The notes below the pieces were generated by a model that made no database searches, was not told the origin of the DNA, and saw only the letters and a list, made by a program, of their open reading frames with translations. A DNA stretch of 64,000 nucleotides from Lachnospiraceae bacterium (GTDB lineage: Bacteria; Bacillota; Clostridia; Lachnospirales; Lachnospiraceae): contig JAMPFQ010000012.1 in assembly GCA_023664345.1 (NCBI GenBank), positions 52,990 through 116,989 of the forward strand, written 5' to 3'. Position numbers and translations under genes: made by a program. How positions within the stretch are numbered: position 1 is the first letter of the stretch; every line of letters starts with the position of its first letter. This document shows positions 6,888 through 47,932 of the stretch, piece by piece.

Positions 6888-6890
6888 AAG

Positions 6891-7127: not shown

Positions 7128-7137
7128 GAGGGCAGAT

Positions 7138-10566: not shown

Positions 10567-10582
10567 CGGGGGATAATCTGTT

Positions 10583-11350: not shown

Positions 11351-11386
11351 TTTTCCCGGAAAGATTGCGGGAGGGAAAGGCTGAAA

Positions 11387-13445: not shown

Positions 13446-13480
13446 GTTTGGATGCTGTTCAGTTATGAATTGATTTGCTT

Positions 13481-13624: not shown

Positions 13625-13659
13625 GCAGCCCGCAGGACAGAATTGACAGGAGGATGGAG

Positions 13660-17447: not shown

Positions 17448-18182
17448 ATGAAAAACAGAATTGATATCGTAGGCATGGGGCCGGGCAGGGAGGATATGAT
17501 GACGGGGGAGGCTCTGCGGGCGCTGGAGGAGGCGGATGTGATCGTAGGTTACACGCTGTACCTGGATCTGCTGGACGACCGCTTCCGGGGAAAGGAACTG
17601 CTGTCCACGCCCATGCGCGGGGAGGAGGAGCGGTGCAGGATCTGCTTCCGGGAGGCGGCGAAAGGGAAAAAGGTTGCCCTTGTGTGCAGCGGGGATGCCG
17701 GGATCTACGGACTGGCCTCCCTGATGTATGAGATGGGGAAGGAGGAGCCGGAGACGGAAATTCATGTCGTTGCGGGAGTCACTGCGGCAAGCAGCGGGGC
17801 GGCGGTTCTGGGGGCGCCCCTGAACCATGATTTCTGTGTGATCAGCCTGAGCGACCTGCTGACACCCTGGGAAACAATCGAGAAGCGGCTCCGAGCCGCC
17901 GCGGAAGGTGATTTTGTCATTGCGCTCTATAATCCGTCCAGCCATAAGCGAAAGGATCATCTGTCCCGGGCCTGTGAGATCCTGCTTTGCAGCATGGAAG
18001 GAGAGCGGGTCTGCGGATATGTGGAAAATATCGGAAGAGAGGGAACAAAAGCGGAAACCTGTACCCTGCGGGAATTAAGGGACAGGGAGGTCAATATGTT
18101 TACCACGGTATTTATCGGAAGTACTGGCTCAGAGATTGTAGGCGGAAAGCTGATCACAAGGCGGGGCTATGGGCACAGGTGA
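17448..18182 (+). CDS. cbiH: Cobalt-precorrin-3 C17-methyltransferase
   Basis: The 244-residue SAM-dependent methylase also contracts the ring. DIVGMGPGREDMMTGEALRA, VALVCSGDAGIYGLASLMYE, and VAGVTAASSGAAVLGAPLNHD with LSDLLTPWE are CbiH/CobJ signatures. The start at 17448 is preferred because GGAGG ends 5 bases before it; the in-frame ATG at 17436 overlaps that site. Expression may depend on the hairpins just upstream. Confidence 0.95.
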   Translation: MKNRIDIVGMGPGREDMMTGEALRALEEADVIVGYTLYLDLLDDRFRGKELLSTPMRGEEERCRICFREAAKGKKVALVCSGDAGIYGLASLMYEMGKEEPETEIHVVAGVTAASSGAAVLGAPLNHDFCVISLSDLLTPWETIEKRLRAAAEGDFVIALYNPSSHKRKDHLSRACEILLCSMEGERVCGYVENIGREGTKAETCTLRELRDREVNMFTTVFIGSTGSEIVGGKLITRRGYGHR

Positions 18183-18223
18183 AAGATGAAAATGCCGTTT
18201 GCGCGGCGGGAATGAGAGGAAGT

Positions 18224-20290
18224 ATGAGGGAAATACTGATCTTTGCGGGGACAACGGAAGGGAGAGTTCTGTCGGAGAGGCTGTCGGAGGCGGAGGTACC
18301 GCACACTGTCTGCGTGGCCACGGAATATGGGGAGATCGTTTTAGGGCAGCATCCTCTTGTAAAAATACACCGGGGAAGAATGAACCAGGAGGAAATAGAA
18401 GTGTTCCTGAAAGCAGGCGATTTCTCTGCAGTGGTGGATGCGACCCATCCCTTTGCGGAGGAGATCACCCGCAATATAAAGGCGGCAGTGAACCGGCTGA
18501 ATGAGGGAACGGGAGCAGCCGCGCTGTCCTATTTCAGGCTGCGCAGGGATTCTGCTGCCCAAGGTGCAACGGATACAGCGGAAAATATTGCTTTTTTTGA
18601 GACCAATACGGCCTGCGCGAAAGCATTGGAGCAGACGGAGGGGAATCTCCTGCTGACCACCGGCAGTAAGGAACTGGCCGAGTATTGCGGTTTTGGGGAG
18701 GTAAGACAGCGGCTGTATGTCAGAGTCCTTCCCGGGATGGAAAGCCTTTCGCTGTGCATGGAACAGGGGATCCGCGGAAAGCAGATCATTGCCATGCAGG
18801 GCCCCTTTAGCGTGGAAATGAATGAAGCAATCCTGCGCCAGTATCAGATCTCCTGCCTGGTGACCAAGGAAAGCGGCGTGTCCGGCGGTTACCCGGAGAA
18901 GCTGGAGGCCGCCCGGAGAGCAGGAACGCGTGTGTTTGTCATAGGCCGTCCCAGGGAGGATGAGGGCTGTTCCTTTGCGGAGGTATGCGGCAGGCTGGCA
19001 GCAGTCTGCGGGAGAGAGATCCGGGCGAGGGGCCGGATGGAGATCATCCTTGCGGGTATCGGCATGGGATATGGGGATTCCATGACCAGGGAAGTGGAAA
19101 AGGCGGTCAGGGAAGCGGATCTGGTATTTGGGGCGGAAAGGATGCTGGCAAACCTGCGCACAAAGGCGGAAACGTATCCCTTTTACCAGGCGGGACAGAT
19201 CATTCCCCGCCTGCGGGAGGTTCAGGACGAGAACCCGCTCACGGAAAGCAGTAAGGTCGTCGTCCTCTTTTCCGGCGACAGCGGATTTTACAGCGGGTGC
19301 CAGGCTTTACACGCGGCGCTGGAACAGGAGATCAGACAGGGACGGCTGGAGGCGTCCCTGCGCATCATGCCGGGGATCTCCTCCGTGGCTTATCTGGCGG
19401 CGTGTATCGGGGAGAGTTATCAGGATGCAGCGGTCTACAGCATGCATGGGAAAAAGCTGCCCGATCTTGCGCACAGGATCAGAAATCATCCGAAAACATT
19501 CCTGCTGACCTCCGGCGTCGGGGATGTCAACCGATTGGGGCAGCTCTTGACAGAAGCGGATATGGGGGACTGCGAGGTCATAACAGGGTATCAGTTATCC
19601 TATGAGGAACAGCGGGTGACCGTGCATACGCCCGCCGAATGCTGTGGACTGGACGAGGAGGGACTTTACACCTGCTTTATCAGAAATCCACATGCCGCAG
19701 ACAGGCGGCTGACCCATGGCATCCCGGATTCGGAATTTGTCAGGGACAGGGTTCCCATGACGAAAGAGGAGGTCCGGGAGGTCAGCATCTGCAAGCTGCG
19801 GCTGCGAGATCAGGCGGTGGTCTATGATATCGGCAGCGGCACCGGCTCCATTGCGGTGGAGATAGCGGGGCTTTCCGAAGATATCCGGGTCTATGCGGTG
19901 GAGCGAAAGAGGGAAGCGGCGGCTCTGATCGGGCAGAACAGGGAGAAGTTCGGGCTGCAGAATATCACAGTGGTGGAAGCCGAGGCCCCGGAGGGCTTAT
20001 CCGGTCTCCCCATGGCAACGCACGCGTTCATCGGGGGCAGCGGTGGCAGGTTAGAGGAGATCCTGGCAGCGCTGCGGCGGATCAATCCGCGGATGCGGGT
20101 GGTATTAAACGCCGTCAGCATGGAAACCATCTCCGAGATAAGAAAGATCTTGTCCATGGAGGAGATCGCAGGGGCAGAGGTGGCGCAATTACAGGTAAAC
20201 AGGGCGAAGAAGATTGGAGACTATCATATGATGCAGGCTGAGAATCCGGTCTGGATCTGCGCCTTTGACTTTACAGGAGAGGGTTGTTAA
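18224..20290 (+). CDS. CbiJ-CbiE-CbiT fusion: precorrin-6A reductase and precorrin-6B C5,15-methyltransferase/decarboxylase
   Basis: The 688-residue fusion covers three successive steps. Residues 1 to about 265 are CbiJ (ILIFAGTTEGRVLSERL, DATHPFAEEIT, TGSKELAEY). From about 272 the CbiE methylase starts (IILAGIGMGYGDSMTREVE, LFSGDSGFYSG). From about 505 CbiT follows (FVRDRVPMTKEEVRE, SAM motif VYDIGSGTGSIAVE, GGSGGRLEEIL). CbiE-CbiT fusions are common; all three together are less usual. The ATG at 18224 follows GAGAGGAAG; the frame is open further upstream only inside cbiH. cbiA begins one base after its stop. Confidence 0.93.
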   Translation: MREILIFAGTTEGRVLSERLSEAEVPHTVCVATEYGEIVLGQHPLVKIHRGRMNQEEIEVFLKAGDFSAVVDATHPFAEEITRNIKAAVNRLNEGTGAAALSYFRLRRDSAAQGATDTAENIAFFETNTACAKALEQTEGNLLLTTGSKELAEYCGFGEVRQRLYVRVLPGMESLSLCMEQGIRGKQIIAMQGPFSVEMNEAILRQYQISCLVTKESGVSGGYPEKLEAARRAGTRVFVIGRPREDEGCSFAEVCGRLAAVCGREIRARGRMEIILAGIGMGYGDSMTREVEKAVREADLVFGAERMLANLRTKAETYPFYQAGQIIPRLREVQDENPLTESSKVVVLFSGDSGFYSGCQALHAALEQEIRQGRLEASLRIMPGISSVAYLAACIGESYQDAAVYSMHGKKLPDLAHRIRNHPKTFLLTSGVGDVNRLGQLLTEADMGDCEVITGYQLSYEEQRVTVHTPAECCGLDEEGLYTCFIRNPHAADRRLTHGIPDSEFVRDRVPMTKEEVREVSICKLRLRDQAVVYDIGSGTGSIAVEIAGLSEDIRVYAVERKREAAALIGQNREKFGLQNITVVEAEAPEGLSGLPMATHAFIGGSGGRLEEILAALRRINPRMRVVLNAVSMETISEIRKILSMEEIAGAEVAQLQVNRAKKIGDYHMMQAENPVWICAFDFTGEGC

Positions 20291-34386: not shown

Positions 34387-34448
34387 AACAGAGGCAGTAT
34401 GTGAACCGCTGTCATGGGAACGGTCAGGTTGAAGACAGGAGAAGAAAG

Positions 34449-35735
34449 ATGGAACTGATCATAAACGATGTGGATGTAATGACCCTGCCAAGTGAGAAAG
34501 CGCTGGAAACGCTGCTGAAAGAGATCGAGCGGCTGCAGTTCTATAACATAAGGAACGGTGAGGAAGATGATCGCGCGGAGAACATGAAGAAGATGTTCCG
34601 GGGGATGATAGCCAGGGCCGACCTGGATGATGACGATGAGACAAAATATATTTTTGAAGCCCTGCCCAAACTGCTGAATTTTTCCAGCCATTTTGGCAGT
34701 GACGATCCTGACAGTGATAAAATGCTCGAACTCCTGGATGTTATGGCGGAATCGGACATCGATTTTACCGAGGCAAGGTATTACCGCGGAAACAGGACGA
34801 ATTTCAGGGATCATCTGATCGAGCAGGTCTTTGACAAGTATTCTCTGATCGAAAAGCTGTCCCGGATGGGGATCGATCTGGACGAGGCGCTGGTCAACGG
34901 CAAGACCCCGGTGCATATCCTGATGTCCCGGAACCGAATGAACTCCTTTTTCCAGGGGGGAAAAGAAGAGCAGGAACTGGCGCGGATCATGGACTTTTTC
35001 AGCGTGGGATCCATGGAAGCGCTGGACAGGGACGGAAGTTCCGCTATCCACACAGCGGTCAAAAACAATCATTTTGAAGCGTTGGAGGCCATGATCAAAA
35101 AGGGGATCGATGTGAATATCACGGAGGATCAGCCTGCCGTAGGGGGAACCACTCCCTTGCATACGGCCTGCGCCTATGGTTTCCCGAAGATCGTGCAGAT
35201 GCTCATGGATGCGGGAGCGGACGATACCATGAAGAACGTGGAGGAAGAAACGCCCGCCCATGTGGCCGTTTCCGAGAAGATCAGGTTCAAGAAGATTACC
35301 GTGGAAGAGCGGGCGGAAATGATCAAAGCCCTGAAAAATATCGATATTCCGGGCAAAGGTGGGCAGACACCGCTGATGCTTGCCCAGGACTATCATTTAT
35401 TTATCTCCAATGTGCTCACACCGCTGCTGATCGAGAAGGGAGCCGATGTGAACCGGAAAGATGATAACGGAAACACCGCAATCCTGCTTTACGCGCAGTG
35501 GCAGTGTCATATGAGCGTGGTGAAGCCCATGGTGAAGGCGGGGCTGGATCTCAATGCCAGGAATAAGGACGGCAACACCATCCTCCATCTGGCGCTGAAA
35601 AACAAAAGCTGTGAGGAAGCGCGATACCTGATCAAGAAAGGCGCGGACTATAACATCGCCAACGAGCGGCAAGTGACGCCCATACAGATCGCTGTGGAAG
35701 AAGGGCTGGAGGATGTGCTGGAGTTGATGGTCTGA
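34449..35735 (+). CDS. Ankyrin-repeat protein
   Basis: The 428-residue protein carries a helical N-terminal region of about 130 residues and then ankyrin repeats to the end: GKTPVHILMSRN, DGSSAIHTAVKNNHFEAL, GTTPLHTACAYGFPKIVQMLMDAGA, GQTPLMLAQDY, GNTAILLYAQ, GNTILHLALKN and RQVTPIQIAVEEG. It binds proteins; the partner is unknown. In bacteria such proteins can serve as immunity or scaffold proteins. The start at 34449 follows GACAGGAGAAG; a longer frame to 34401 lacks a ribosome binding site. It ends the plus-strand cluster before a terminator. Confidence 0.88.
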   Translation: MELIINDVDVMTLPSEKALETLLKEIERLQFYNIRNGEEDDRAENMKKMFRGMIARADLDDDDETKYIFEALPKLLNFSSHFGSDDPDSDKMLELLDVMAESDIDFTEARYYRGNRTNFRDHLIEQVFDKYSLIEKLSRMGIDLDEALVNGKTPVHILMSRNRMNSFFQGGKEEQELARIMDFFSVGSMEALDRDGSSAIHTAVKNNHFEALEAMIKKGIDVNITEDQPAVGGTTPLHTACAYGFPKIVQMLMDAGADDTMKNVEEETPAHVAVSEKIRFKKITVEERAEMIKALKNIDIPGKGGQTPLMLAQDYHLFISNVLTPLLIEKGADVNRKDDNGNTAILLYAQWQCHMSVVKPMVKAGLDLNARNKDGNTILHLALKNKSCEEARYLIKKGADYNIANERQVTPIQIAVEEGLEDVLELMV

Positions 35736-35783
35736 ATTTTATGTATACATTTTTATTTCCGCAAGCAGTGAGCCAAACTGATA

Positions 35784-35835
35784 CAGTCAGAAAAATCCCC
35801 GGCAGGTCACAGGAAGCCGGGGATTTTTCTGACTG
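35784..35835. terminator. Strong bidirectional terminator
   Basis: CAGTCAGAAAAATCCCCGGC pairs with GCCGGGGATTTTTCTGACTG around a 12-base loop. The stem contains A-runs on the left and T-runs on the right, so it can stop transcription both from the ankyrin gene and from the convergent minus-strand gene at 35860. Confidence 0.9.
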
Positions 35836-35859
35836 ATCATAAATTCGGATTATGGTTTT

Positions 35860-36465
35860 CTATTCTTTCAGGCAGTCAATATAAATGTTTATGGTTTCTT
35901 CGATTTTCTCCCAATTTTGATTCAGCTCAGGATATAATCCTGTTTCGCCAAACCCGATCATATCAGTGAGAGCCAAAAATAATTCCGTATCCAGAAAGCC
36001 GCGGCTGCAGCCAGCAGTTTCGGCTTCCCGCAAGATCTGCGGATACCTCAGTTCTTTTTTTACCCTTTTTGAGAAACAGTATTCTAATAGATCTGACGGA
36101 AGGTCATTTCTTCGATCTTCACCAGATAGTTCTCTTGCGATACGGATTTCAAGACCGTAAATATTCTGGATACCGTGATTCCAGGTTTTAAATTCAAATG
36201 AAAAATTTGCTTTATGGGCGATCTCACAGATCTCCAACGCAAGTTCTTTATCGCCGTAAATATAGAGCCAATATGCCAAAGAGCATAAACAGTCTGTATC
36301 CGAACTGCTCTTAAAGGAGCATTTTTGTATTAGCTTTTTGCAGGGTCTGACGATTCTAGGATAGATTTTCTGTGTGTTTTCCCGATCATACTGCTTCAGG
36401 ATTTTTTGAAGTATTGGCTGCAGCATATCCTGAAAATATTTGATCTCTTGTTGCAACGTATCCAT
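35860..36465 (-). CDS. Hypothetical protein (201 aa)
   Basis: A cytosolic helical protein containing CLCSLAYWLYIYGDKELALEICE, which resembles a TPR-like helix pair, and GLEIRIARELSGEDRR. I do not recognise a family. The ATG at 36465 follows TTGGAGGCG; a TTG four codons upstream overlaps that site. It lies 15 bases after the gene at 36481-36981 on the same strand, in the AT-rich accessory stretch, which suggests an accessory or immunity-type role (weak inference). Confidence 0.6.
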   Translation of the reverse strand: MDTLQQEIKYFQDMLQPILQKILKQYDRENTQKIYPRIVRPCKKLIQKCSFKSSSDTDCLCSLAYWLYIYGDKELALEICEIAHKANFSFEFKTWNHGIQNIYGLEIRIARELSGEDRRNDLPSDLLEYCFSKRVKKELRYPQILREAETAGCSRGFLDTELFLALTDMIGFGETGLYPELNQNWEKIEETINIYIDCLKE

Positions 36466-36480
36466 TTTCGCCTCCAATGA

Positions 36481-36981
36481 TCATTGTGGAAGCAGCATGG
36501 GTACGCCGGGCCACATCAATTCCGGCATGGAATCCAATTTGTTTAAATAGACAAATATAGTCTGTTGATCTCCCCAGATCCCCGAATCAGGTTTTCTTGT
36601 GCATAATGTTATATGATAATATCCCGGATTCATGGGAACGATCTGTTCCGAAGGACACTCTGTACTCCACTCCATCAGCCAAAACAGGTCGATCACACAT
36701 AGCTTTGTGTCCTGGATATCAATCCCTAAGCGGATCGCAACAGGATATTCTGCCAGCAGGTCTTCCGTCGGATATCCCTCTCTGAACTTTAGTGTGAACT
36801 TTCCGCTGCTTCCCGTACAGAAGCCTACTACGTCGCCCTTTTTGATGTGCCTTGCCACATCCTCCGGTTTTGAGTATTCTTCGTCAAAAAAATTACAGCC
36901 TTCAGGAATATTCTTATTCGTTTCAGGTGAATAGAACACGATCCCCATTCCGTCAGGATCCAAATGAATATCCTTTTCCAT
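36481..36981 (-). CDS. Hypothetical protein (166 aa)
   Basis: A soluble, beta-rich protein without signal peptide. Segments such as GKFTLKFREGYP and NPGYYHITLCTRKP suggest a compact all-beta fold like those seen among immunity proteins, but I cannot name a family. The start at 36981 follows AGGAG in GACAGGAGC. It lies between the VOC protein gene and the 201-residue gene on the same strand and is probably co-transcribed. Confidence 0.6.
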   Translation of the reverse strand: MEKDIHLDPDGMGIVFYSPETNKNIPEGCNFFDEEYSKPEDVARHIKKGDVVGFCTGSSGKFTLKFREGYPTEDLLAEYPVAIRLGIDIQDTKLCVIDLFWLMEWSTECPSEQIVPMNPGYYHITLCTRKPDSGIWGDQQTIFVYLNKLDSMPELMWPGVPMLLPQ

Positions 36982-36997
36982 GGATTTGATGCTCCTG

Positions 36998-37438
36998 TCA
37001 TAGTTTTTCTGTATAGCCGCCTGTGATCTCGATAGGATTTCCGTCAGGATCCATAAAGGTAAAATACCAGTATGGTGAAAAAACATTTATAAACCGGATT
37101 TCAGTCATCTGCGTTGCAATTCCCAAATCTTTTATCCTATTGTATTCTGCTTTCAGGTCTTCCACTCCTAAGTTGATAAATACCTTACGGGTATTTAGGC
37201 TATTCGCAATCTCGCTTTGGTTATCATATATTTCCCAATACTCACCTTTTGTTACTACCTGCTCGGGATTTTCGCTGTCATAATAACCGTTCATGAGGCA
37301 GAGGTTGAGTCCTTCATTATGAAACATGGCGAAACGCGTTCCGTTTACAGCGCTTACTTTCCTGTCAAAAAGTTTCTCATAAAAGGAAACCGATCTATCA
37401 AAGTCCTTGACGATCAAGTAAATGGAACCATACCGCAT
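36998..37438 (-). CDS. VOC/glyoxalase superfamily protein
   Basis: The 146-residue protein begins RYGSIYLIVKDFDRSVSFYEKLF and ends YFTFMDPDGNPIEITGG, the two halves of a vicinal-oxygen-chelate fold. Only some metal ligands are apparent (Glu in the last strand), so it may be a metalloenzyme such as a dioxygenase or resistance protein, or a ligand binder. The start at 37438 follows GGGAGA. It is the first gene of the minus-strand trio and faces the AbiE operon. Confidence 0.8.
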   Translation of the reverse strand: MRYGSIYLIVKDFDRSVSFYEKLFDRKVSAVNGTRFAMFHNEGLNLCLMNGYYDSENPEQVVTKGEYWEIYDNQSEIANSLNTRKVFINLGVEDLKAEYNRIKDLGIATQMTEIRFINVFSPYWYFTFMDPDGNPIEITGGYTEKL

Positions 37439-37484
37439 TGCTGTTTCTCCCATAACCCAGATTGCTGCGTAAAATTTTGATTAA

Positions 37485-37513
37485 AGCATACCACAAAACA
37501 GTTGTCTTGTACA
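37485..37513 (-). promoter_or_regulatory. Candidate promoter of the minus-strand trio
   Basis: On the minus strand: -35 TGTACA (37513-37508), 17-base spacer ending in TGG, -10 TATGCT (37490-37485) with an extended -10 TG. It lies next to, but outside, the AbiE inverted repeat. Confidence 0.5.
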
Positions 37514-37515
37514 CA

Positions 37516-37561
37516 TTTACTTTCTCGCTTAAAAATGATACAATTTAAGCGAGAAAGTAAA
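37516..37561 (+). promoter_or_regulatory. AbiE promoter inside a perfect 18-bp inverted repeat (operator)
   Basis: TTTACTTTCTCGCTTAAA (37516-37533) and its exact reverse complement (37544-37561) are separated by 10 bases. The repeat contains a -35 TTTACT (37516-37521), 17-base spacer and -10 TACAAT (37539-37544). AbiEi antitoxins are known to repress their own promoter by binding inverted repeats, so this is the expected autoregulatory operator. Confidence 0.85.
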
Positions 37562-37573
37562 GGAGACCATTTT

Positions 37574-38167
37574 ATGACCAAAAACGATATTTTGCAGCAG
37601 CTGATAGAGGAAAACAACGGGTATCTGCTCTCATCCATGGCAGTAGAGAAAAATATTTCAAAAACATTTTTGGCAAAATATGTAAATGAAAATGGGTTGG
37701 AGCGGGTCGCAAGAGGCATCTATATTACAGAGGATGTATGGCCGGATGAACTGTATATCATGCAGGTGCGGAATGCAGCGGTTATCTTTTCAGGCGAAAC
37801 AGCGCTCTATCTCCATGGACTGATAGACAGGGAATATTCAGAAATCTGTATTTCTGTACCTACAGGCTATAATGCCACACATTTAAAAGCGGAAAATGTG
37901 CGCATAAAATATGCATCAAAAAGTAGTTATGGACTTGGAGTATGCACAGTACCATCAACGAGTGGAAATATGGTTAAGGTTTATGACAGGGAACGGTGCA
38001 TCTGTGATCTGGTGTCAAACAGAAATATAATAGAAGTACAGAATTTCCAGGCTGCCATGAAAGGATATATGTCAGAAAAAGGCAAAAGATTGTCCAGACT
38101 GATCGAGTATGCGGAAAAACTTGGGATGCGGGATGAAGTGATGAAATATGTGGAGGTTTTCGGATGA
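37574..38167 (+). CDS. abiEi: Type IV antitoxin AbiEi (winged-helix)
   Basis: The 197-residue protein has an N-terminal winged-helix DNA-binding part (LLSSMAVEKNISKTFLAKYVNENGLERVARGIYI) and the AbiEi C-terminal domain (FSGETALYLHGLIDREY, then VYDRERCICDLV). It should neutralise AbiEii and repress the operon. The ATG at 37574 follows AAAGGAGACC. Its stop overlaps the toxin start (ATGA). Confidence 0.92.
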   Translation: MTKNDILQQLIEENNGYLLSSMAVEKNISKTFLAKYVNENGLERVARGIYITEDVWPDELYIMQVRNAAVIFSGETALYLHGLIDREYSEICISVPTGYNATHLKAENVRIKYASKSSYGLGVCTVPSTSGNMVKVYDRERCICDLVSNRNIIEVQNFQAAMKGYMSEKGKRLSRLIEYAEKLGMRDEVMKYVEVFG

Positions 38168-39015
38168 TTCATACAGCGAAACAGCTGAAAGATAAGGTGC
38201 GGAATATTTCAAAAGGAGATAATAATATCGCAAAAATGCTGATCAGAAATTTTATGATGGAGCGTTTTTTGGAGAGGGTATCTGTGTCTGATTACCGCGA
38301 TCAAATTATTCTTAAGGGAGGCATGCTGGTTGCAGCCATCGTAGGCGTTGATATGAGGGCGACCATGGATATTGACGCAACCGTGAAAGCGTTTCCCGTG
38401 AATGCAGATGATGCACAGAGAATGATTTCTGAAATATGCGCTATCCCATTGGGAGATGGGGTCTGTTTTCACATTACCTCTGTGTCAGATATTATGACGG
38501 ATTTTGAATATCCCGGCATCAGAATGATGCTTGAAGCTACATTGGAACGAATGAGGCAGCCTGTCAAGATTGATATTTCAACAGATGATGTGATTACACC
38601 CTCAGCAGTGGAATATGAATATAAACTGATGTTTGAAGATAGAACGATTTCTCTTATTACATATAATATGGAAACATTGCTTGCGGAGAAAATACAGACA
38701 GTTTTAACGAGGGGAATCGCAAATACCAGGTTGAGAGATTTTTATGATGTATATGAAGTTATGAGAATATGTATGGACAAGGTGGATAAAGATATCCTGC
38801 TGCAGGCATTTAGAGCAACCTGTAAAAAGAGGGGAACTATTTTTTCAAAAGAGGAGATGAGCGAAACTCTAATATTGATAGAAAATGATGCAGGAATGGC
38901 GGGGATGTGGGAGCAATTTAAGAAAAAGAATTATTTTGTGGGCAATCTGGAATGGAAAGATGTATTAAATGGCGTCCGGGATGCGATTGATGTGTATATA
39001 GCAGATAAACTCTGA
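38164..39015 (+). CDS. abiEii: Type IV toxin AbiEii, nucleotidyltransferase
   Basis: The 283-residue protein has the AbiEii/DUF1814 nucleotidyltransferase motifs: IILKGGMLVA (motif I), RATMDIDATV (paired acids), LLAEKIQTVLTRG and RLRDFYDVYEV. Members can halt growth by modifying tRNA or nucleotides during phage infection (abortive infection). It overlaps the antitoxin by 4 bases, and 37 bases follow before the helicase gene, so the defence genes may share the AbiE promoter. Confidence 0.92.
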   Translation: MIHTAKQLKDKVRNISKGDNNIAKMLIRNFMMERFLERVSVSDYRDQIILKGGMLVAAIVGVDMRATMDIDATVKAFPVNADDAQRMISEICAIPLGDGVCFHITSVSDIMTDFEYPGIRMMLEATLERMRQPVKIDISTDDVITPSAVEYEYKLMFEDRTISLITYNMETLLAEKIQTVLTRGIANTRLRDFYDVYEVMRICMDKVDKDILLQAFRATCKKRGTIFSKEEMSETLILIENDAGMAGMWEQFKKKNYFVGNLEWKDVLNGVRDAIDVYIADKL

Positions 39016-39052
39016 GAAGAAAAGATACAAAGGAAAAGTGGGGTGTTTCAAG

Positions 39053-42000
39053 ATGGATAGCAATCAAATTATAAGTAATATGAAAACATATCTTCATATT
39101 TCAGCAAATCTATTGACCGAGTGGCTGTGTAAGTTTCTCCCAAAGGCAACACCGGATTGGTGGGAAGACTGTGTGATGGACAAACTAACCTATACCCAGC
39201 GGGAGACAGCTAAGAGAAAAGGTTTTACAAATCTTAAAGAATTTGATCTGGCTTCCCTTTTGAGAATAGCTGATAAGTCTTGGTATGCGATGCGGGAAAT
39301 AGTATATCTTTCCACACAAGAGAGGGAATGCATCAGAAATATGATGCGTGTGCGAAATAACTGGGCACACTGTAGCACAGTGCTTCCGGGCAAGGATGCT
39401 ATTATTGAGGATCTTGATACGCTGCATCGGTTTTTTGAACAGATGGGGTGTGATGGCGGGCTGGTTAATGAAGTTGAACAGATGGCAGAAGCCGTGAAAT
39501 CTTCTTCCATGGTTGATTTTGATGTACTTTTAAAAGAGGGATCGGGAGAAGAAGTACTATATGGAACCGATGCTGAAAATGAGATAGCAGAGAAGAGCCT
39601 GGTTTATTTAGTTGGGGATCCCACTACGCGCGGCATTGTAATGTCTATTACAGACATTGGTGATACCAAAAAGTATGATGTATTTGTTGACGGGCAATTT
39701 AAGACTTATTATTCCGGACAGATCGCACCTGTGGCAGAGACAGATTCCTGCAACTGGGTGGATATCAATACATTCCGAAGCTATTTGACGGCATATCAGA
39801 TTAATAATCCATCCAATCGCGATTTGTATTCCTTGAATTCTGCAAGAATAGATTTTGTACCGTATCAGTTCAGGCCGGCATTAAAGTTGATTCATGCAGA
39901 CGAACCACGTATCCTTATTGCGGATAGTGTGGGGGTTGGTAAGACAATCGAGGCGGGGCTTATTATCAAGGAGTTACAGGCAAGAAGTGAACTTGAAAAT
40001 ATTTTAATCATATGCCCGAAGCCTCTGGTGGCAGAGCGTAAATGGGAACTGGAAATGAAGAGATTTGATGAAGAGTTTATCCCGGTTACCGGATCGGAAC
40101 TTCGTCAGATTATTTCCGATACGGACAGGGACGGAGAGTGGCCTGTCAGATATAGCAAAACAATTGTGCCCTATTCAGTTTTGGATGGTCGCACTTATCA
40201 TGGGGATACCGGAAGAAAAAGTACTTTCTTTGGGCTTAAGGGTTTGGATCCGGCTCCTCATTTTGATCTTGTTATAGTTGATGAGGCGCATCATATCAGA
40301 AACGGCAGCATGGAGAAAGAAAAGGCATTTGAATATAAATGTGTTAAGTATTTCTGTGACCATGCGGATGCAGTTGTCATGCTGACGGCTACACCTTTAC
40401 AGACCAAAGATGATGATTTGTTTACATTGTTGAATGTCCTGAGACCGGATGTGTTTTTTGACAAACCTGCTTTCAATCTTATGGCGAGACCGAATGCTCA
40501 CATTTCAGCAGCATCCAGTCTGATACGAAAGGCTGCGAAGAACTGGCAGGAACAGGCAGTCAGGGAATTGGAGGGGGTCCTTGAAACACAGTGGGGAGAG
40601 AATGTCATAGCGGTGAATCCGGCATATGCCTCTATACTTCAGATCTTGCAGCAGGAAAAGATTACAAGGGAAGAACGCGTAAGGCTTATTTCTGATGTGG
40701 AGAGTCTGCATAGCTTTCATTCCATGCTTAACCGTACCAGAAGAAAGGACATACAGGATTTCTGTATCAGAAGACCCTTTACATTGGCAGTGGAATTTAC
40801 TCCTGCACAGCAGGCACTGCATGATGAACTTCTTCGTTTTGAACAGAATGCCCTTATGCAGTTACATGGAGATGCGAGGTCGATTCCTTTTATGATGTCA
40901 ACAATCAAGAGGCAGGCGGCAAGCTGTATATTTGGATTGGCGCCACATATCAGAGATCTGATCAGGCGAAGATTTGTACAGATGGACGGAGATTCGGATA
41001 GTGAGATGCCAGGGTTTGAATTTTCGGGAACCGGCGCAGGCGCATTAGAAGAACTGGCACAGAATCTGTTACAAATGGCGGATAGCCTTCCTGAAGAAGA
41101 CCCTAAATTTGACCAGATGATGACGGTAATCCGCGAAAAGCAGGCTGCTGAAAATAATAAGATCATTATATTCAGCACATTCCGTTTTACTCTCGGATAT
41201 CTTAAGGAAAAACTTATAAAAGCAGGTTTCAGAGTAGATCAGGTAGATGGTAGTGTAAAGGATGCTGTACGTCAAGATTTACGGGCAAGATTTGAATTGC
41301 CAAAGTCTGATCCGGAGGCGCTTGATATTCTGCTGTTTACGGAAGTTGGCTCTGAAGGGCTTGATTATCAGTTCTGCAACATGATGATAAACTATGATCT
41401 GCCCTGGAATCCTATGAAAATTGAACAGAGGATTGGCCGTATTGATCGTCGCGGGCAGAAAAGTGAGGCGGTTAGCATATATAATGTTATTACGAATGGA
41501 ACGGTTGATGCGGACATCTATTATAGATGTTTGATGCGGATTGGGATATTCGAGAGCAGCATCGGCGAGTGTGAAGAAATTCTGGGTGAAATTGCTGAGC
41601 GGATCGATCAGATAGTAGTTGTCCCCACACTTACGGAGGAAGAACGAAAAATTAAGCTGGAACAGATGGCAGATAATGAGGTGCGGAAGATTCAGGAAAT
41701 GAATCGTCTGGAGGAGGAAGAAAAAGAATTCTTTGGCTTTGATTTATCAGAATACATGACAAGTCAGGAAATACATAAGGCTGAGAATCCATGGCTGAGT
41801 CAGAAAAATTTACAGATTATGATTGAGCAATATATGGAAGAAAGGCTTGGAAAAGGAACATATTTCCTTGGCGAAAGTGACGTGAAGCAGTTGAGATTGT
41901 CTGCAACGGCAAGGGAATTGCTCCGAGAAGATTTCCGAAAACTTCCCGCAGGCAGAAATGCAGTGAGACGGAGTTGGGATATCTATTTAAAAGGGAAAAA

Positions 42001-42631
42001 TCCGATGCACCCTGTCACTTTTGATTCCGAGGCGGCAGAGAAAAACAGGGATGCTTTTTTCATCACGGCAATGCATCCGCTGGCCAGGCAGGCTGCAGAA
42101 TATTATAATTTAAATAAGCAGGCATATATCAGAGTACAGTATGCGAATGATGATTTACCGACAGGAACATATTATTTTTCGGTTTACGCATGGAGTTATG
42201 TCGGCCTCAATCCGCACTTTAGATTAATGATTATCTGTGATAACGATATCATTGCGGATGAACTTCCGGATATCCTTCAAGAGTCTCAAAACGGAGCGCC
42301 TGCAGTAAAAATGCTGCCCTCTGATTGGGATGCGTTGGAGAAGAAACATGTAAAGCTGTGGATGGAAGAAAAGCGTAATGAGGTTAAGGAGGCCGAAAAT
42401 GCAGCTACATTCAAAATTGAAAGTTTGACGAATAATTTCCGTAATCTCCAGAGAACACTGGAACAGAAAATCATTGATACTGCAAGTGAAAGCATTCAAA
42501 GGATGTATACCGGTGAGTTGGAATCTGCGCGGGAAAGGTATGAAGTCAAAGTTCAGTCTATTCGTCAGCAGGTGGCACAGGCGGATATACATACTACATT
42601 GATCGCTAATGGAATATTGGAGATCGTTTGA
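39053..42631 (+). CDS. HEPN-domain SNF2/RapA-type helicase
   Basis: The 1192-residue protein has an N-terminal Swt1-like HEPN domain (about 1-140) with an Rx4H ribonuclease motif in VRNNWAHCST (Arg101, His106). The SNF2 ATPase follows: Walker A SVGVGKTIEAG near 290, DEAH box IVDEAHHIRNG near 410, LTATPLQ, and the C-terminal lobe with GSEGLDYQ and QRIGRIDRRGQ near 800. A long helical tail of about 350 residues ends the protein. The layout resembles DrmD-type helicases of defence systems, with an added HEPN. A GTG at 39038 with AAAGGA is an alternative start. It pairs with the downstream GHKL ATPase. Confidence 0.9.
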   Translation: MDSNQIISNMKTYLHISANLLTEWLCKFLPKATPDWWEDCVMDKLTYTQRETAKRKGFTNLKEFDLASLLRIADKSWYAMREIVYLSTQERECIRNMMRVRNNWAHCSTVLPGKDAIIEDLDTLHRFFEQMGCDGGLVNEVEQMAEAVKSSSMVDFDVLLKEGSGEEVLYGTDAENEIAEKSLVYLVGDPTTRGIVMSITDIGDTKKYDVFVDGQFKTYYSGQIAPVAETDSCNWVDINTFRSYLTAYQINNPSNRDLYSLNSARIDFVPYQFRPALKLIHADEPRILIADSVGVGKTIEAGLIIKELQARSELENILIICPKPLVAERKWELEMKRFDEEFIPVTGSELRQIISDTDRDGEWPVRYSKTIVPYSVLDGRTYHGDTGRKSTFFGLKGLDPAPHFDLVIVDEAHHIRNGSMEKEKAFEYKCVKYFCDHADAVVMLTATPLQTKDDDLFTLLNVLRPDVFFDKPAFNLMARPNAHISAASSLIRKAAKNWQEQAVRELEGVLETQWGENVIAVNPAYASILQILQQEKITREERVRLISDVESLHSFHSMLNRTRRKDIQDFCIRRPFTLAVEFTPAQQALHDELLRFEQNALMQLHGDARSIPFMMSTIKRQAASCIFGLAPHIRDLIRRRFVQMDGDSDSEMPGFEFSGTGAGALEELAQNLLQMADSLPEEDPKFDQMMTVIREKQAAENNKIIIFSTFRFTLGYLKEKLIKAGFRVDQVDGSVKDAVRQDLRARFELPKSDPEALDILLFTEVGSEGLDYQFCNMMINYDLPWNPMKIEQRIGRIDRRGQKSEAVSIYNVITNGTVDADIYYRCLMRIGIFESSIGECEEILGEIAERIDQIVVVPTLTEEERKIKLEQMADNEVRKIQEMNRLEEEEKEFFGFDLSEYMTSQEIHKAENPWLSQKNLQIMIEQYMEERLGKGTYFLGESDVKQLRLSATARELLREDFRKLPAGRNAVRRSWDIYLKGKNPMHPVTFDSEAAEKNRDAFFITAMHPLARQAAEYYNLNKQAYIRVQYANDDLPTGTYYFSVYAWSYVGLNPHFRLMIICDNDIIADELPDILQESQNGAPAVKMLPSDWDALEKKHVKLWMEEKRNEVKEAENAATFKIESLTNNFRNLQRTLEQKIIDTASESIQRMYTGELESARERYEVKVQSIRQQVAQADIHTTLIANGILEIV

Positions 42632-42666
42632 GATACATAAGAATCTACACATTGGAGGGAAATACC

Positions 42667-45600
42667 ATGGGGAATAAAAGCATAGCCAATGAGATATTAC
42701 AACGCCAGGATAAGGATGGTATGCTGCGGCGTGCGCTGGAAAGAATTATCCAGTTGTATACAGATAAGTCACATTTCGTATATGAATTATTACAAAATGC
42801 CGAGGACGCTGGTGCGTCTAAAATCAGGTTTTTACAATATACGGATCGATTAGTTGTGTTACATGATGGGCATCCATTTTCACTGGAGAATCTGCAAGGA
42901 CTTTGTGATATAGGTAAATCAGATAAGATTAATGACCTCAATCAGATTGGTGAATTTGGTGTCGGTTTCAAATCAGTATTTGGCATTTGTGAAAAAGTTC
43001 AGCTTTTCAGCCATCCAACAGAAGATGATCTGACGGAGGGATATTCACGGTTTGCTGTTGAAGTCCGTGATTTTACTCATCCTGTGGATATTGATGATCA
43101 GAAAGTAGAGGATGGATATACTACGAAGTTTATATTTCCTTATAAGGTAGGATTGCCATTCTCTGGTTTTGAGACTGTAGATAAGTTAAATGAGGTTTTG
43201 TCAAAGCGTCTCCAGAACCTTGGTGTCACCACGCTCCTTTTTATGAAAAATCTGCAGTCTGTTGAATATCAGATAGAACTGCCACAGTTTAAAAAATCCG
43301 GTTCTTATGTGTTGAAAAAAGAAATGATCAATGAGCATTGTACATTGGTATCAGCTATTGGGGAAGCTGATTCTTATCTGATATTTTCCAGGAAAGTGCA
43401 GGGAATCCAGGCAGGAAGAACAATTGATATTGCCTTTGCATTAAATGTCAGAAAGGATGGCGGGTATGATTTCAGACCATCAATACATCCATACATATCA
43501 GTATATTTTCCGACGGAAACAGAGAGTAAGTTGAAGTTTATTGTACAGGGACCTTATCGCACCACGCCGAACCGAAGCAGTGTCCCGGCTGATGATGAGG
43601 ATAATATTGGATTAGCAGAACAAACGTCGCAGCTATTGAAGGACAGTATTATAGAACTGCGTGATAACGGGAAGCTGGATTATAGTTTTTTGAACATTCT
43701 GCCCATTGATGAGACTGTTTTTAATAATGCCCCTTTGTTTAGAAATATGTTTGAGGCCATTGTTGATATGATGCATGAGGAAAGGCTGCTGTTGTGCAAG
43801 GACGGAACATATGCATCTGCAGAATGTGTGAAGATAGCCAGAGGTGCTGATTTTGCGAAACTTTTCACGGATGATCTTTTAACTGAATTGATCAATGATG
43901 AGATAGATTATCATTGGCTCCCGACAGACCTTACGGAAACAAGCGTACAGTATAAAACTTTGTATGATTTCCTGACTGATATATTGAAGATTGAAGTAAT
44001 CCGTCCGGAAAATTTGCGCAGCTATTTTAATAAGAACCGAAATTTCTTACTGAATCGGGATGATGAATGGCTGGTGAAATTCTATCATTTGTATGAGTCT
44101 GTCGCTGCGGCTTTTTCAAAACAGAAGGGTGGCTCTAATATGCTGATGGCGGAGTTTGTTAAAACCTCTACCGGAAAGTTTGTAGCCCCATATCGTAGAA
44201 GTGACGGAAACACGTTTTGGTTGCGTGGTTATGAAAATGCGTCATATCTTCCAAATGTATTCTTGCCATCTGAGAATATTGGGGATATGGGTGATATTGC
44301 TTTTGTGGACGGATACATTTATGAGCAATGTAAGCATTTTTTTACGGAGATTTTGAATCTTCAAAAACCAAATGAATACGATTTTTTTATCAGGGATTTC
44401 AAGAAAAGATGTGAAGAAAAATTAAGTACTACAGATGAACAGCAATATATCAAAGATGTGAAAATGCTTTTGAAATATAGGGGTAATGTTGATTATCGTG
44501 ATGAAGTAGAGCGTTGTATTAAGAAATATCTTTTGCTGAGATGTAGGAAAGATGATAAGGTTGTATATGTGAATCCGTATAAGGAACAGGTTTACTTTTC
44601 TGTTAATTCTGAAAACATGAGTATAGAGTTGTATTTTAGTCATATCGTTGTCTATGCGTATGTAGATAGTGGCTTTTATGAGGCTAACGGTATTAATAGA
44701 GATTTATTGAAAGTGCTTGGAGTTACGGAGAATGTTGCTATAAGGGAAGATACTACTAATGGTACATACTCTACTGGAAAGCCAGGAGGTCAACCGGAAT
44801 GGCATACAACTGGGGAGTTTAGATGGAAACTGAATCTGTGCTATTTTCCAAGGATTCTTGAATATATTTCAAAACATCCTAAAGAAATAGATTCTATGGC
44901 TAAGTCCAGTTTTATATTCAGATTTTTGCAAAATAATGAATCGAGGCTTCAAGGGACAGTTCATATTGGTGGAAGTACTCCAGATAAGGATAATGAGTAT
45001 GCTGAGATTGTAGGGGTACTTCGCGGGAAACTTTGTTATGAGAATTATCCATGGGATGGAAAATGGCTTTATGCAAAATCGGGAGAACTTGTTGCTCAAA
45101 AAGATATATCCAAGTACGACCTGAATCCACAGCTTTATGGTGATATTAAACCGAACTCCAAATTATATGAGATACTTGGATTTAAGAAGAATGACGCCGA
45201 ACTTTTGAAAGAGGCAGAAAAAGCTTATGACTGTCTGTCCGAGGAGCGGAAGAATCAGTATTTGGAAATTGAACTTCGGAGGCGTTATGGAATTTCTGTT
45301 ACAGACCTTGACAATAATTTTGGCGGAAATTCTGTTAATGGTTCAGGCAGTCTACCGCCAGTTTATCAGGAGGATACCTATAAGTTTCCATCAGCAAGAG
45401 TTAAAAATTGGGATTCTCTGCGTAAACATGTTGCGGAAGTGCTGTGTTTTGCGAAACCAGTCGAATATGCGGAGTGTATACGCAGTATTCGCGTGAGTAA
45501 ACCTGAGAATGAAGTTAAAGCTTATTTAAAAAGTATGTATAGGACGGATGTAAATAAATATGCTTGCCAAATGTGCTATGATTCGTTTTCGACCGTGGAG

Positions 45601-45912
45601 ATGTGTCAGATTGCAAATTTGCCAGAAAAGGAATTGGATCCGATGCATCTTTGCTTGTGTCCTAACTGTGCGGTAAAATATAGGCAAATGCGTACAAATG
45701 AGACGGGTTTAAGGGATTTCCTGACAGAAATCAAAAATCTTACTGATGTGGAGATTGACAATTCTGATCCGGTTGGAATACTATTTGCAGATGAGATGAT
45801 TTATTTCACCCAGACGCATATAGCCGAAATCAGGGAATTGATGATTTTGCAGGAAGAGGCTGATAAATATGAGGATTCGTCGGAAAAAGAGCCTGCGGAA
45901 CAATTAAAGTAA
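42667..45912 (+). CDS. Sacsin-type GHKL (Hsp90-like) ATPase with C-terminal zinc cluster
   Basis: The 1081-residue protein opens with an Hsp90/Sacsin-like ATPase: N-box ELLQNAEDAGA (Glu40, Asn44), G1 VLHDGHPF (Asp67) and G2 GEFGVGFKSVF (from 95), with SRKVQG and FIVQGPYRTTPNR further on. The long middle has no motif I can name. Near 965-1005 a cluster CQMCYDSF...HLCLCPNC may form a zinc ribbon or HNH-like treble clef, and an acidic tail follows. Large proteins with this N-terminus are found in defence islands. The start at 42667 follows TTGGAGGG, 35 bases after the helicase stop, so the two are co-transcribed. Confidence 0.88.
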   Translation: MGNKSIANEILQRQDKDGMLRRALERIIQLYTDKSHFVYELLQNAEDAGASKIRFLQYTDRLVVLHDGHPFSLENLQGLCDIGKSDKINDLNQIGEFGVGFKSVFGICEKVQLFSHPTEDDLTEGYSRFAVEVRDFTHPVDIDDQKVEDGYTTKFIFPYKVGLPFSGFETVDKLNEVLSKRLQNLGVTTLLFMKNLQSVEYQIELPQFKKSGSYVLKKEMINEHCTLVSAIGEADSYLIFSRKVQGIQAGRTIDIAFALNVRKDGGYDFRPSIHPYISVYFPTETESKLKFIVQGPYRTTPNRSSVPADDEDNIGLAEQTSQLLKDSIIELRDNGKLDYSFLNILPIDETVFNNAPLFRNMFEAIVDMMHEERLLLCKDGTYASAECVKIARGADFAKLFTDDLLTELINDEIDYHWLPTDLTETSVQYKTLYDFLTDILKIEVIRPENLRSYFNKNRNFLLNRDDEWLVKFYHLYESVAAAFSKQKGGSNMLMAEFVKTSTGKFVAPYRRSDGNTFWLRGYENASYLPNVFLPSENIGDMGDIAFVDGYIYEQCKHFFTEILNLQKPNEYDFFIRDFKKRCEEKLSTTDEQQYIKDVKMLLKYRGNVDYRDEVERCIKKYLLLRCRKDDKVVYVNPYKEQVYFSVNSENMSIELYFSHIVVYAYVDSGFYEANGINRDLLKVLGVTENVAIREDTTNGTYSTGKPGGQPEWHTTGEFRWKLNLCYFPRILEYISKHPKEIDSMAKSSFIFRFLQNNESRLQGTVHIGGSTPDKDNEYAEIVGVLRGKLCYENYPWDGKWLYAKSGELVAQKDISKYDLNPQLYGDIKPNSKLYEILGFKKNDAELLKEAEKAYDCLSEERKNQYLEIELRRRYGISVTDLDNNFGGNSVNGSGSLPPVYQEDTYKFPSARVKNWDSLRKHVAEVLCFAKPVEYAECIRSIRVSKPENEVKAYLKSMYRTDVNKYACQMCYDSFSTVEMCQIANLPEKELDPMHLCLCPNCAVKYRQMRTNETGLRDFLTEIKNLTDVEIDNSDPVGILFADEMIYFTQTHIAEIRELMILQEEADKYEDSSEKEPAEQLK

Positions 45913-46004
45913 CAAGAAGATTTTGAGGCTGAGACAGCAGTTGCCAGTACGGATGTTTATAAAGAACACATAGGTAAGCGTGTTTATCACACGAAGCAGT
46001 GAAA

Positions 46005-46022
46005 GGGCAGGCCTACCTGCCC
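46005..46022 (-). terminator. Short hairpin at the end of the ABC permease gene
   Basis: A 7-bp stem GGGCAGG/CCTGCCC spans the permease stop codon, followed on the minus strand by TTTC. It is probably a weak terminator of the minus-strand operon and may also limit read-through from the defence genes. Confidence 0.4.
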
Positions 46023-47218
46023 CACACCTGATACCCCGCAAAAATACGCTTCCCCGCCGCTACGGCGGCAATGCCGCACAGAAGATAGACAAGCGGCGTC
46101 GCCTGCCAGAGGGTGCAGCAGCGGCCAAACAGGCTGACCGGCTGTATGGTGAAGATGCGCTCTATGTCCAGAAAGCTGGTGGGCAGAGCGGACCATAACT
46201 GTGACAGGATCCGGTATTGTACAGGAATGCCGAACATACTTCCCATGATCAGGAAGCCCACGGAGACCGCAAGGGTCGCAATGCCGTTGTGCAGCGTCTC
46301 GGACAGGATCATGACCAGCACGCCCATGAAAACCGCCGTAAGGATCAGGATACCGTAGACGAGGATGCAGGCCTGGCCGAAAGTGAGAGGATAGGAGTAG
46401 TCATATCGTATCTGCAGGGCGGCTCCAAAACCGTCGGTTCCATAGATTCCCAGGGTCAGCGCTCCGTTCAGCATCGTGGCCAGCAGGGAGAAGACCGCTG
46501 CCACGGTCATGCCGGCGCATATCTTGGAAAAGTAAACGGTGTCTTTTCCCCTGGCGCTGCTTAGCATCAGCTGATCCGTTTTCCGCACATGTTCTTCCGG
46601 GAAAATGCCGGACAGGGTGATGGAAACGAACAGGAGGACGATCAGCCCTATGGGCGCGAAATTATTTAACAGAGCGCTGTAACCGTCATAATAATAAAAG
46701 GTCATGGGAATCTCCAGCTGCGCCTCCTTTTCCTGCCAATAGGTTTTCTCCGTGTCGGAGAGGAGCATGGACTCCCAAGCCGCTTTCAGCAGATCGCTTC
46801 TTGCGGAATAGAGGGCGTTTTCATCCGGATCCCATTTCATAACCCCTGAGAGACCCTGTTGTGTCCATGAACGGATGATATTGAAAACGGCGCTGTAGGG
46901 GCGGGCGTAGGTCTGGTATTCCTCCGTCAGCGTATAGCGATCCGCATCAGGCGGGATCTGTCCGTAAGCCGCCACCGCTTCTTCCAGAAGCTGTTGATCG
47001 ATCTTTCGACCGGACAGGGTTCTGGCATATTCCCTGTCCACCAGGAACATGTGATAATGGGTATCCGCCACCTGGCCGTCAACATAATACTTGCCGATAA
47101 GTTCTGTGGATGCCATAAACAGGACCAGGAGCAGGCAGATCAGAAAGGTGACCTGCACAAGCCTGCGTTTTACGATCTTTTTCAGTTCATATCGGTAAAG
47201 AATCCCGAATTGGTTCAT
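46013..47218 (-). CDS. ABC exporter permease (ABC-2 type)
   Basis: The 401-residue protein has one N-terminal helix (VTFLICLLLVLFMAS), a large extracellular loop of about 170 residues, then five or more helices including GLIVLLFVSITLSGIFPEEH, typical of ABC-2 permeases. It is partner of the ATPase encoded upstream. The start at 47218 is favoured because GGAGG lies 7 bases before it; the earlier ATG is too close. The substrate (lipid, peptide antibiotic or similar) is unknown. Confidence 0.85.
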   Translation of the reverse strand: MNQFGILYRYELKKIVKRRLVQVTFLICLLLVLFMASTELIGKYYVDGQVADTHYHMFLVDREYARTLSGRKIDQQLLEEAVAAYGQIPPDADRYTLTEEYQTYARPYSAVFNIIRSWTQQGLSGVMKWDPDENALYSARSDLLKAAWESMLLSDTEKTYWQEKEAQLEIPMTFYYYDGYSALLNNFAPIGLIVLLFVSITLSGIFPEEHVRKTDQLMLSSARGKDTVYFSKICAGMTVAAVFSLLATMLNGALTLGIYGTDGFGAALQIRYDYSYPLTFGQACILVYGILILTAVFMGVLVMILSETLHNGIATLAVSVGFLIMGSMFGIPVQYRILSQLWSALPTSFLDIERIFTIQPVSLFGRCCTLWQATPLVYLLCGIAAVAAGKRIFAGYQVWGR

Positions 47219-47245
47219 AGCCATACCTCCGTTCCTAAGGAATTG

Positions 47246-47932
47246 TTAAAACTGTTCCAGATAAAATTCTTCCAGATTTCCTTTTTGCTCATCCCATTTT
47301 CCCTGAAAGATCAGCTGTCCGTCTTTCATCATCAGCACTTCGTCCGCGATGTGTTCGATATCCGAGACGATGTGGGTGGAGAGCAGGACGATATTATCCT
47401 TTCCCAGATCCTCGATCAGGTTCCGGAAGCGCACCCGCTCTTTCGGGTCAAGCCCTGCGGTGGGTTCGTCCAGGACCAGCAGCTTCGGGTCGTTCAATAA
47501 AGCCTGAGCAATGCCCAGCCGCTGCTTCATGCCGCCGGAAAAGGTCCTGATCTTCTTCCGGCTTACCTCCTGCAAGGATACCAGTTCCAGCAGCTGTGCC
47601 GCTTTCCGCCTGGCCTGCGCCCTGGGAATGCCTTTCAGCGCCGCCAGATACAGCAGGAAATCGATCGCGGTGAATTCAGGGTAGTAGCCGAAATCCTGGG
47701 GCAGATAGCCCAGGATGGCGCGGTAGCTTTCCTCGCTCACATCCGTGCCGTCAAAGGTGACGGTGCCGCCGGTGGGTTTTAAGATGCCGCAGATCATCCT
47801 CATCAAAGTGGTCTTGCCCGCGCCGTTTGCGCCAAGCAGGCCGTATACGCCCTTTTGCAGGCTGAAAGAAACGCGGTCCACGGCGATCCGGTTCTGGTAT
47901 TGTTTTGTCAGACGGTCTATGACAAGTTTCAT
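47246..47932 (-). CDS. ABC exporter ATPase
   Basis: The 228-residue ATPase has Walker A GLLGANGAGKTTLMR, Q-loop LGYLPQDFGYYPEFTA, signature TFSGGMKQRLGIAQALL, Walker B LLVLDEPTAGLDP and H-loop LLSTHIVSD. It energises the ABC-2 permease. The start is at 47932 after GGAGAGGAGGAGC and overlaps the upstream membrane-protein gene by 4 bases (ATGA). Confidence 0.93.
   Translation of the reverse strand: MKLVIDRLTKQYQNRIAVDRVSFSLQKGVYGLLGANGAGKTTLMRMICGILKPTGGTVTFDGTDVSEESYRAILGYLPQDFGYYPEFTAIDFLLYLAALKGIPRAQARRKAAQLLELVSLQEVSRKKIRTFSGGMKQRLGIAQALLNDPKLLVLDEPTAGLDPKERVRFRNLIEDLGKDNIVLLSTHIVSDIEHIADEVLMMKDGQLIFQGKWDEQKGNLEEFYLEQF

Follow-up and report, generated by a model that had tools for sequence, protein, structure and literature searches.

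Locus and domain content

Here we describe a pair of large adjacent genes in a 64,000-nucleotide stretch of a Lachnospiraceae bacterium genome (assembly GCA_023664345.1, contig JAMPFQ010000012.1, positions 52,990 to 116,989; hereafter the window), which encode a SNF2-type helicase with an N-terminal HEPN domain and a Sacsin-like ATPase of the GHKL class (Table 1). The pair is real, conserved, and unnamed in the libraries searched, and is probably a defence module. Both genes are intact and 35 bases apart, and an adjacent AbiEi/AbiEii gene pair ends 37 bases 5′ of the helicase start. A preliminary description of the window, made from the sequence alone, had placed the genes at exactly these coordinates, and its domain calls for the two proteins are borne out by the profile searches and alignments below.

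Table 1. Features of the helicase–ATPase locus and its AbiE neighbours (window coordinates)
Feature	Position	Strand	Basis
HEPN-SNF2 (RapA/DrmD-like) helicase, 1192 aa, ATG to stop	39053..42631	+	Open reading frame and profile matches
Swt1-type HEPN domain, residues 19-132	39107..39448	+	Pfam PF18731
HEPN motif R101-N-N-W-A-H106 (Rx4H)	39353..39370	+	Alignment; R and H in 70/79
SNF2 ATPase lobe, Walker A and DEAH boxes	39908..40582	+	Pfam PF00176; motif columns 78-79 of 79
Helicase C-terminal lobe	41108..41455	+	Pfam PF00271
Sacsin-like GHKL ATPase, helicase partner, 1081 aa, ATG to stop	42667..45912	+	Open reading frame and profile matches
Sacsin-type GHKL ATP-binding domain, residues 14-122	42706..43032	+	Profile matches
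Zinc-knuckle core of predicted McrA-like pseudo-HNH (C967-x2-C970 ... C998-x2-C1001), catalytic residues lost	45565..45669	+	Profile and alignment
AbiEi antitoxin-like gene, neighbour, probably outside module	37574..38167	+	PADLOC
AbiEii nucleotidyltransferase toxin-like gene, neighbour, probably outside module	38164..39015	+	Pfam, PADLOC

The helicase matches the Pfam families HEPN_Swt1 (E 2.9e-9 for the whole protein), SNF2, and Helicase_C, and its best-scoring solved chains are those of RapA. Its N-terminal segment reaches 44 bits against HEPN_Swt1 (cut-off 27.5), a model matched at E up to 0.01 by all 46 N-terminal segments tried, taken from the window and 45 chosen relatives that do not include the HEPN-less L011. 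A profile search of solved chains returned nothing convincing as HEPN. For the ATPase, Pfam gives SACS (1.7e-16) and HATPase_c_3, the NCBIfam sacsin N-domain model is the only one in that library to be passed (91.5 bits, cut-off 50), and the best-scoring solved chain is Sacsin. N-box residues E40 and N44 and G2-box residues G95, G98, and G100 are invariant in an alignment of 40 ATPases picked for having one GHKL module, and most sequences read have H-[DN]-G as their middle box.

Conservation of the pairing

The helicase scan covered one genome per species, and the best 80 of 164 relatives, together with four loci from family genomes and the window and less three repeat genomes, gave 82 helicase loci from several phyla; the set is drawn from the closer half of the relatives and includes some near-identical members. 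Four loci end too soon after the helicase to be judged. In 77 of the remaining 78, a Sacsin-family gene lies directly downstream on the same strand at a median gap of 3 bases; 71 of these pairs are separated by no more than 40 bases, and in 21 the genes touch or overlap. Gaps are widest (547, 1032, and 1057 bases) in L038, with a short partner reading frame, and in L051 and L084, with a split helicase. In the lone non-adjacent case (L031), the order is Sacsin-like gene, RecD-like gene, helicase, placing the partner two genes upstream. Because only helicases served as search queries, the adjacent ATPase is an independent result.

Genome content agrees with this arrangement. Of 299 family genomes, that of the window among them, five have the helicase (E up to 1e-40) and six have an ATPase relative (E up to 1e-20), with all five shared, so that the pairing is far beyond chance. 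The helicase itself is sparsely spread: it turned up in 5 of these family genomes and, at phylum level, in 1 of 398, both counts including the genome of the window. Outside the main set, we read 6 of 30 viral-catalogue matches, 3 of 9 plasmid matches, and 1 of 3 phage-collection matches, and the partner adjoins the helicase in seven of these extra loci (L155, L156, L157, L159, L151, L152, and L154). Within this subfamily, helicase and Sacsin-like ATPase are thus a near-obligate pair.

The partner itself varies in build. Complete partners fall into three types: a single GHKL module in a protein of 1001-1286 aa (1446 aa in one case), a single module in 1500-1539 aa, and two modules in tandem in 1567-1594 aa. 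Partner type changed at least ten times on the helicase tree when the GHKL-less L021 and L024 were scored as a fourth type, a count that is approximate because the FastTree tree has long branches. Two arrangements stand out among the variants. L021 and L024 (13624-16605 in both) encode a partner with the C-terminal domain described below and no GHKL, while their close relatives L022 and L023 have GHKL; and in L054 (13633-20558), two tandem Sacsin-like genes, each with that same C-terminal end, follow one helicase in a locus that also holds PglZ and PglX.

A degenerate HNH domain found with the pairing

The last ~110 residues of the partner form a domain with C-x2-C and C-x2-C/H, the cysteine cluster that the preliminary description had noticed without recognising what it was or that it goes with the pairing. 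A profile (A5) built from 47 partner C-terminal domains picks up HNH-type proteins in family genomes (E 3.8e-8 at best) and weakly matches the McrA restriction enzyme 6ghc (E 0.016). Aligned to two intact HNH proteins, the first three zinc ligands are retained in 47, 47, and 47 of 47 sequences and the fourth is C in 41 and H in 6, whereas the general-base His is present in 2 of 47, the Asn in 7 of 47, and the last His in none. Judged by these residues, the cluster is a decayed HNH fold of the McrA-like kind, predicted to be dead. The lost catalytic residues (base His in 2/47, last His in 0/47) also led us to reject an active HNH nuclease in the ATPase.

This pseudo-HNH occurs in all three GHKL-bearing partner types and in 69 of 72 partners longer than 950 aa, the three misses being cut by a contig end, although that count is partly circular because 47 of these sequences built the profile. 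A non-circular comparison of paired with unpaired proteins is provided by the 299 family genomes, in which 16 Sacsin-type ATPase matches exceeded the cut-off. Five adjoin the helicase, and 5/5 carry the pseudo-HNH; the other 11 comprise eight complete genes, two at or near a contig end (one cut by it, one within 100 bases of it), and one (C27, in the window's own genome) not confirmed as GHKL. None of the eight complete unpaired genes (0/8) has the pseudo-HNH, and none lies beside a HEPN-SNF2 helicase within the 10-16 kb examined. A5 also has four weaker matches (E 3.8e-8 to 7.1e-4) in frames of 256-524 aa, of which the two that were read are intact HNH genes. The predicted dead HNH is newly recognised here and, in the sequences compared, tracks the pairing; both it and the pairing appear to persist through exchange of the ATPase type.

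Genomic neighbourhoods and a possible link to DNA modification

The genes around the pair elsewhere include BREX components (BrxC, PglX, PglZ, and BrxL), type III Mod and Res, type I HsdM and HsdR, and type IV enzymes. Clustered protein families of restriction-modification (R-M) or BREX type occur in 27 of the 82 examined flanks, and loci with no recognised system are not shown to be free of one, because many flanks are short and PADLOC gave nothing at E up to 1e-10 for 10 of 20 further neighbours scanned. Clustered PglZ occurs in 7 of 82 loci, and L088 adds one more in a PglZ-BrxL neighbourhood; other defence neighbours are type IV R-M in L031, PDC-M61 in L065, and, in the window's nearest relative L012, Septu PtuA and PtuB (17762-19679), ~860 bases downstream of the pair. 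The pair occurs beside BREX and R-M operons and also, in the flanks examined, without them, and its surroundings in many other loci are rich in defence genes.

These surroundings also admit a reading in which the pair is an accessory of DNA-modification systems, its helicase replacing BrxHI/BrxHII or an HsdR-type motor and reading host methylation, and lone copies such as the window's being remnants. The helicase scores with the DrmD, BrxHI/BrxHII, and HmaA models of PADLOC, the pair stands downstream and on the same strand of PglZ, Mod-Res, or HsdM-HsdR in many loci, and passages of PMC12839542 give BREX-type helicases a RapA-like plan. However, the clustered families were seen in only 27 flanks, a count that many short flanks and some unidentified neighbours may keep low; none of these families appears around the nearest relatives L012 and L013; and searches of the window's whole genome aimed at PglZ and the MZB domain, but not at other R-M genes, matched neither (the profiles match 2/14 and 8/14 control genomes, respectively). 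The missing PglZ likewise led us to reject BREX membership for the window's pair. We consider the accessory role unlikely, though it deserves serious weight, and favour a defence module that works with or without such neighbours.

The commonest further gene family is a RecD-like helicase of superfamily 1 (~1200 aa), found in 19 of 82 loci (L008, L009, L010, L015-L020, L031, L046, L048, L056, L058, L065, L067, L068, L076, and L089); its scanned representative (L016) matches the PADLOC candidate PDC-S68. In L189 (G190; 4994-13773), a RecD-like gene whose N-terminus is of this same type adjoins a 1674-aa Sacsin-like gene, with no pseudo-HNH and no HEPN-SNF2 helicase, and a RecD–Sacsin link may exist on its own.

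Membership of the unit is not supported for AbiE, which the preliminary description had placed just ahead of the pair. AbiEii is well matched by Pfam (1.5e-38), and AbiEi by PADLOC (3.1e-63) though below its Pfam cut-off. A blastp search (E 1e-3) with the AbiE proteins against the open reading frames of 84 other loci (including three repeats) found none, a search by which distant AbiE could be missed. With the window's own copies the only ones found, AbiE was rejected as a component, and its place beside the pair looks incidental.

The window's island is AT-rich: in 2-kb bins, G+C content is 38-44% across 36-46 kb and 49-58% elsewhere, which fits acquired DNA. In a look for an empty site in relatives, two flanking genes were matched in 14 and 12 of 41 genus genomes; direct repeats in 34500-47500 form ten two-copy families with none seen bounding the island, and a promoter and terminator scan gave fewer sites than shuffled sequence. 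Beside the AT-rich stretch, an ankyrin-repeat protein (34401-35735) matches the PADLOC candidate PDC-M72A.

The HEPN domain as putative effector

Both the Arg and the His of Rx4H are kept in 70 of 79 aligned helicases, while the helicase motifs are nearly invariant, most of their columns being kept in 78-79 of 79 sequences. The motif is not intact in L011, which has no HEPN, and in L035, L037, L038, L040, L043, L067, L068, and L081. Helicases on Ensifer and Rhizobium plasmids (~40-42% identity) likewise lack the HEPN and retain the ATPase partner, and on these two grounds the domain is usual but dispensable.

Such losses could indicate that the HEPN is an RNA-binding or dimerising part with no RNase activity, in a module that moves or remodels DNA-protein complexes; both the near-invariance of the helicase motifs set against the nine imperfect Rx4H motifs and the survival of the pair in HEPN-less plasmid relatives speak for it. 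Retention of R and H in the other 70 helicases, down to ~39-40% identity, is nevertheless what a catalytic site would show, and we judge this alternative improbable beside a HEPN that acts as an RNase.

Two observations concern what may stand in for the domain. A small gene overlaps the 5′ end of the HEPN-less rhizobial helicases (184 aa at L151:7262-7816 and 176 aa at L152:7273-7803; no Pfam match), and its product perhaps replaces HEPN. We also asked whether these helicases have HEPN encoded in a gene of its own upstream, and rejected the idea, no Pfam family being found and the HEPN profile giving chance-level scores (best E 0.0058 among nine proteins). Moreover, the helicases of L035, L037, L038, L040, and L043 belong to one tree branch and have decayed HEPN motifs; their readable partners are of the tandem-GHKL type, and this tandem ATPase perhaps brings another effector.

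Relation to known systems

In the PADLOC and NCBIfam libraries searched, neither gene is named beyond its parts, in keeping with the earlier remark that no named system is known with this combination. Searches of an open-licence library turned up the parts and not the HEPN-SNF2/Sacsin-like pair, which may nevertheless have been described before; none appears in the passages seen of PMC10853773, PMC11090510, and PMC12458937.

Among the closest published arrangements is that of MORC/paraMORC GHKL proteins encoded beside superfamily II (SFII) helicases, SWI2/SNF2 among them, in R-M operons, where the passages seen also place HNH nucleases in some operons and describe certain of the GHKL proteins as ending in a nuclease domain (Iyer 2008, PMC2292703). 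The window likewise has a GHKL gene next to an SFII helicase gene, and the partner is adjacent in 77/78 judgeable loci, with a GHKL domain in 74 of the 77. Here, by contrast, the GHKL is of Sacsin type (the window's matches Sacsin models), the HNH is apparently dead, the helicase bears a HEPN, and some copies of the pair have BREX or neither system beside them. The pair belongs to the GHKL-plus-helicase kind rather than being a categorically new system.

HEPN domains of the Abi2/Swt1 group fused to SWI2/SNF2 ATPases, and listed as active, have been described before (Anantharaman 2013, PMC3710099). The window's helicase has the same HEPN group on an SNF2 ATPase, with a Sacsin-like partner gene in addition; the HEPN–GHKL links given in the passages seen are Ymh-paraMORC fusions and animal Sacsin, and no such partner gene is mentioned there. 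In those passages the HEPN of Sacsin is proposed to act in stress at the level of RNA. By analogy with the animal protein, one might take the combination of Sacsin and HEPN for a quality system for proteins or RNA and not for defence, which we think very improbable given the sparse spread noted above, the R-M, BREX, and Septu neighbours, and the AT-rich stretch in the window. Hma/DUF499 systems resemble the candidate defence pair in combining an SNF2 helicase with a large ATPase and fusing one subunit to HEPN, but there the HEPN is on the ATPase and here on the helicase, and the partner here is GHKL and not a DUF499 ATPase; the passages of PMC12839542 on these and BREX systems have no Hsp90, GHKL, or HATPase wording.

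The remaining comparisons are with DISARM, BREX, and Tiamat. Like DrmD (DISARM) and BrxHI/BrxHII (BREX), whose three PADLOC models all match it, the window's protein is an SNF2-type helicase; unlike them, it carries an N-terminal HEPN, falls below the NCBIfam DrmD cut-off (293 of 610 bits, with no NCBIfam model reaching its curated cut-off), and comes from a genome with no PglZ or MZB match. The MZB/DUF1998 domain we take to be the mark of DrmB in DISARM, and DISARM membership was rejected on the DrmD score and the missing MZB. Tiamat is a single-gene system; its protein TmtA resembles the ATPase as a large Sacsin/Hsp90-like GHKL protein, whereas the ATPase here has a helicase as its partner; its pseudo-HNH end is perhaps a second difference. 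A divergent DISARM or Tiamat under existing names would explain the best PADLOC matches (DrmD at 368 bits, TmtA at 186 bits), yet it is hardly credible in view of the DrmD shortfall, the lack of MZB, and a TmtA match covering about half its model (residues 14-693 on model positions 20-679 of 1302, in PADLOC without a cut-off).

A proposed module and its implications

Our best explanation, which we hold with about as much confidence as doubt, is a horizontally spread two-subunit anti-invader module with a HEPN RNase effector. The RapA-like helicase would travel on DNA, as its kinship suggests, and the ATPase would bind it through the pseudo-HNH domain. ATP-driven opening and closing, as in GHKL proteins, could switch the complex between idle and active states. 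Meeting invading DNA would trigger the complex, often backing up a DNA-modifying system encoded next door, and the N-terminal HEPN would be released to cut RNA, an activity suggested by Rx4H, and stall the infected cell. A possible history starts from a GHKL-HNH nuclease with a helicase, in which HNH cutting was lost and cutting passed to the HEPN of the helicase.

Several observations weigh against this explanation. A GHKL domain was detected in 74 of 77 adjacent partners and not in L021, L024, or L038. The Sacsin-like partner is missing, and other genes are the neighbours, for a viral-catalogue helicase with HEPN (L158:2-3424) and for the more distant helicases L153 (31% identity) and L160 (28%), the latter two limiting the pairing to this helicase subfamily. 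The viral-catalogue partner in L157 (813 aa) is without a pseudo-HNH and stops 116 bases before the sequence end, while that in L159 matches it weakly (E 3.6e-4), and docking through this domain is a suggestion from co-occurrence. The only recognised defence neighbours in the window are AbiE and the PDC-M72A-like ankyrin gene. Finally, with HEPN apparently degenerate or absent in 9/79 helicases and two plasmid relatives, it is not the effector everywhere. What stands of the preliminary description is its domain calls, the conserved pairing, the defence-rich surroundings in many other loci, and the lack of a name in the libraries searched. AbiE as part of the unit is not supported, and the earlier proposal that helicase and ATPase release HEPN RNase activity is unproven.

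More tentatively, and with somewhat less confidence than doubt, the module may be a portable immune add-on, in which a Sacsin-like switch, with the dead HNH as its dock, arms a DNA-tracking, RNase-bearing helicase that works alone or plugs into BREX and type I/III R-M systems, the switch and the RNase each being replaceable. In the genomes tested, the dead HNH already serves as a sequence tag separating paired from unpaired Sacsin-like proteins. If the proposal is correct, it would name a widely scattered and so far unnamed defence unit, possibly mis-scored as DrmD plus Tiamat, and would account for the joint appearance of SNF2 helicases and ATPases of the Sacsin type next to BREX and R-M genes. 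It would also offer a small two-gene system in which to study control of an immune effector by an Hsp90-like ATPase.

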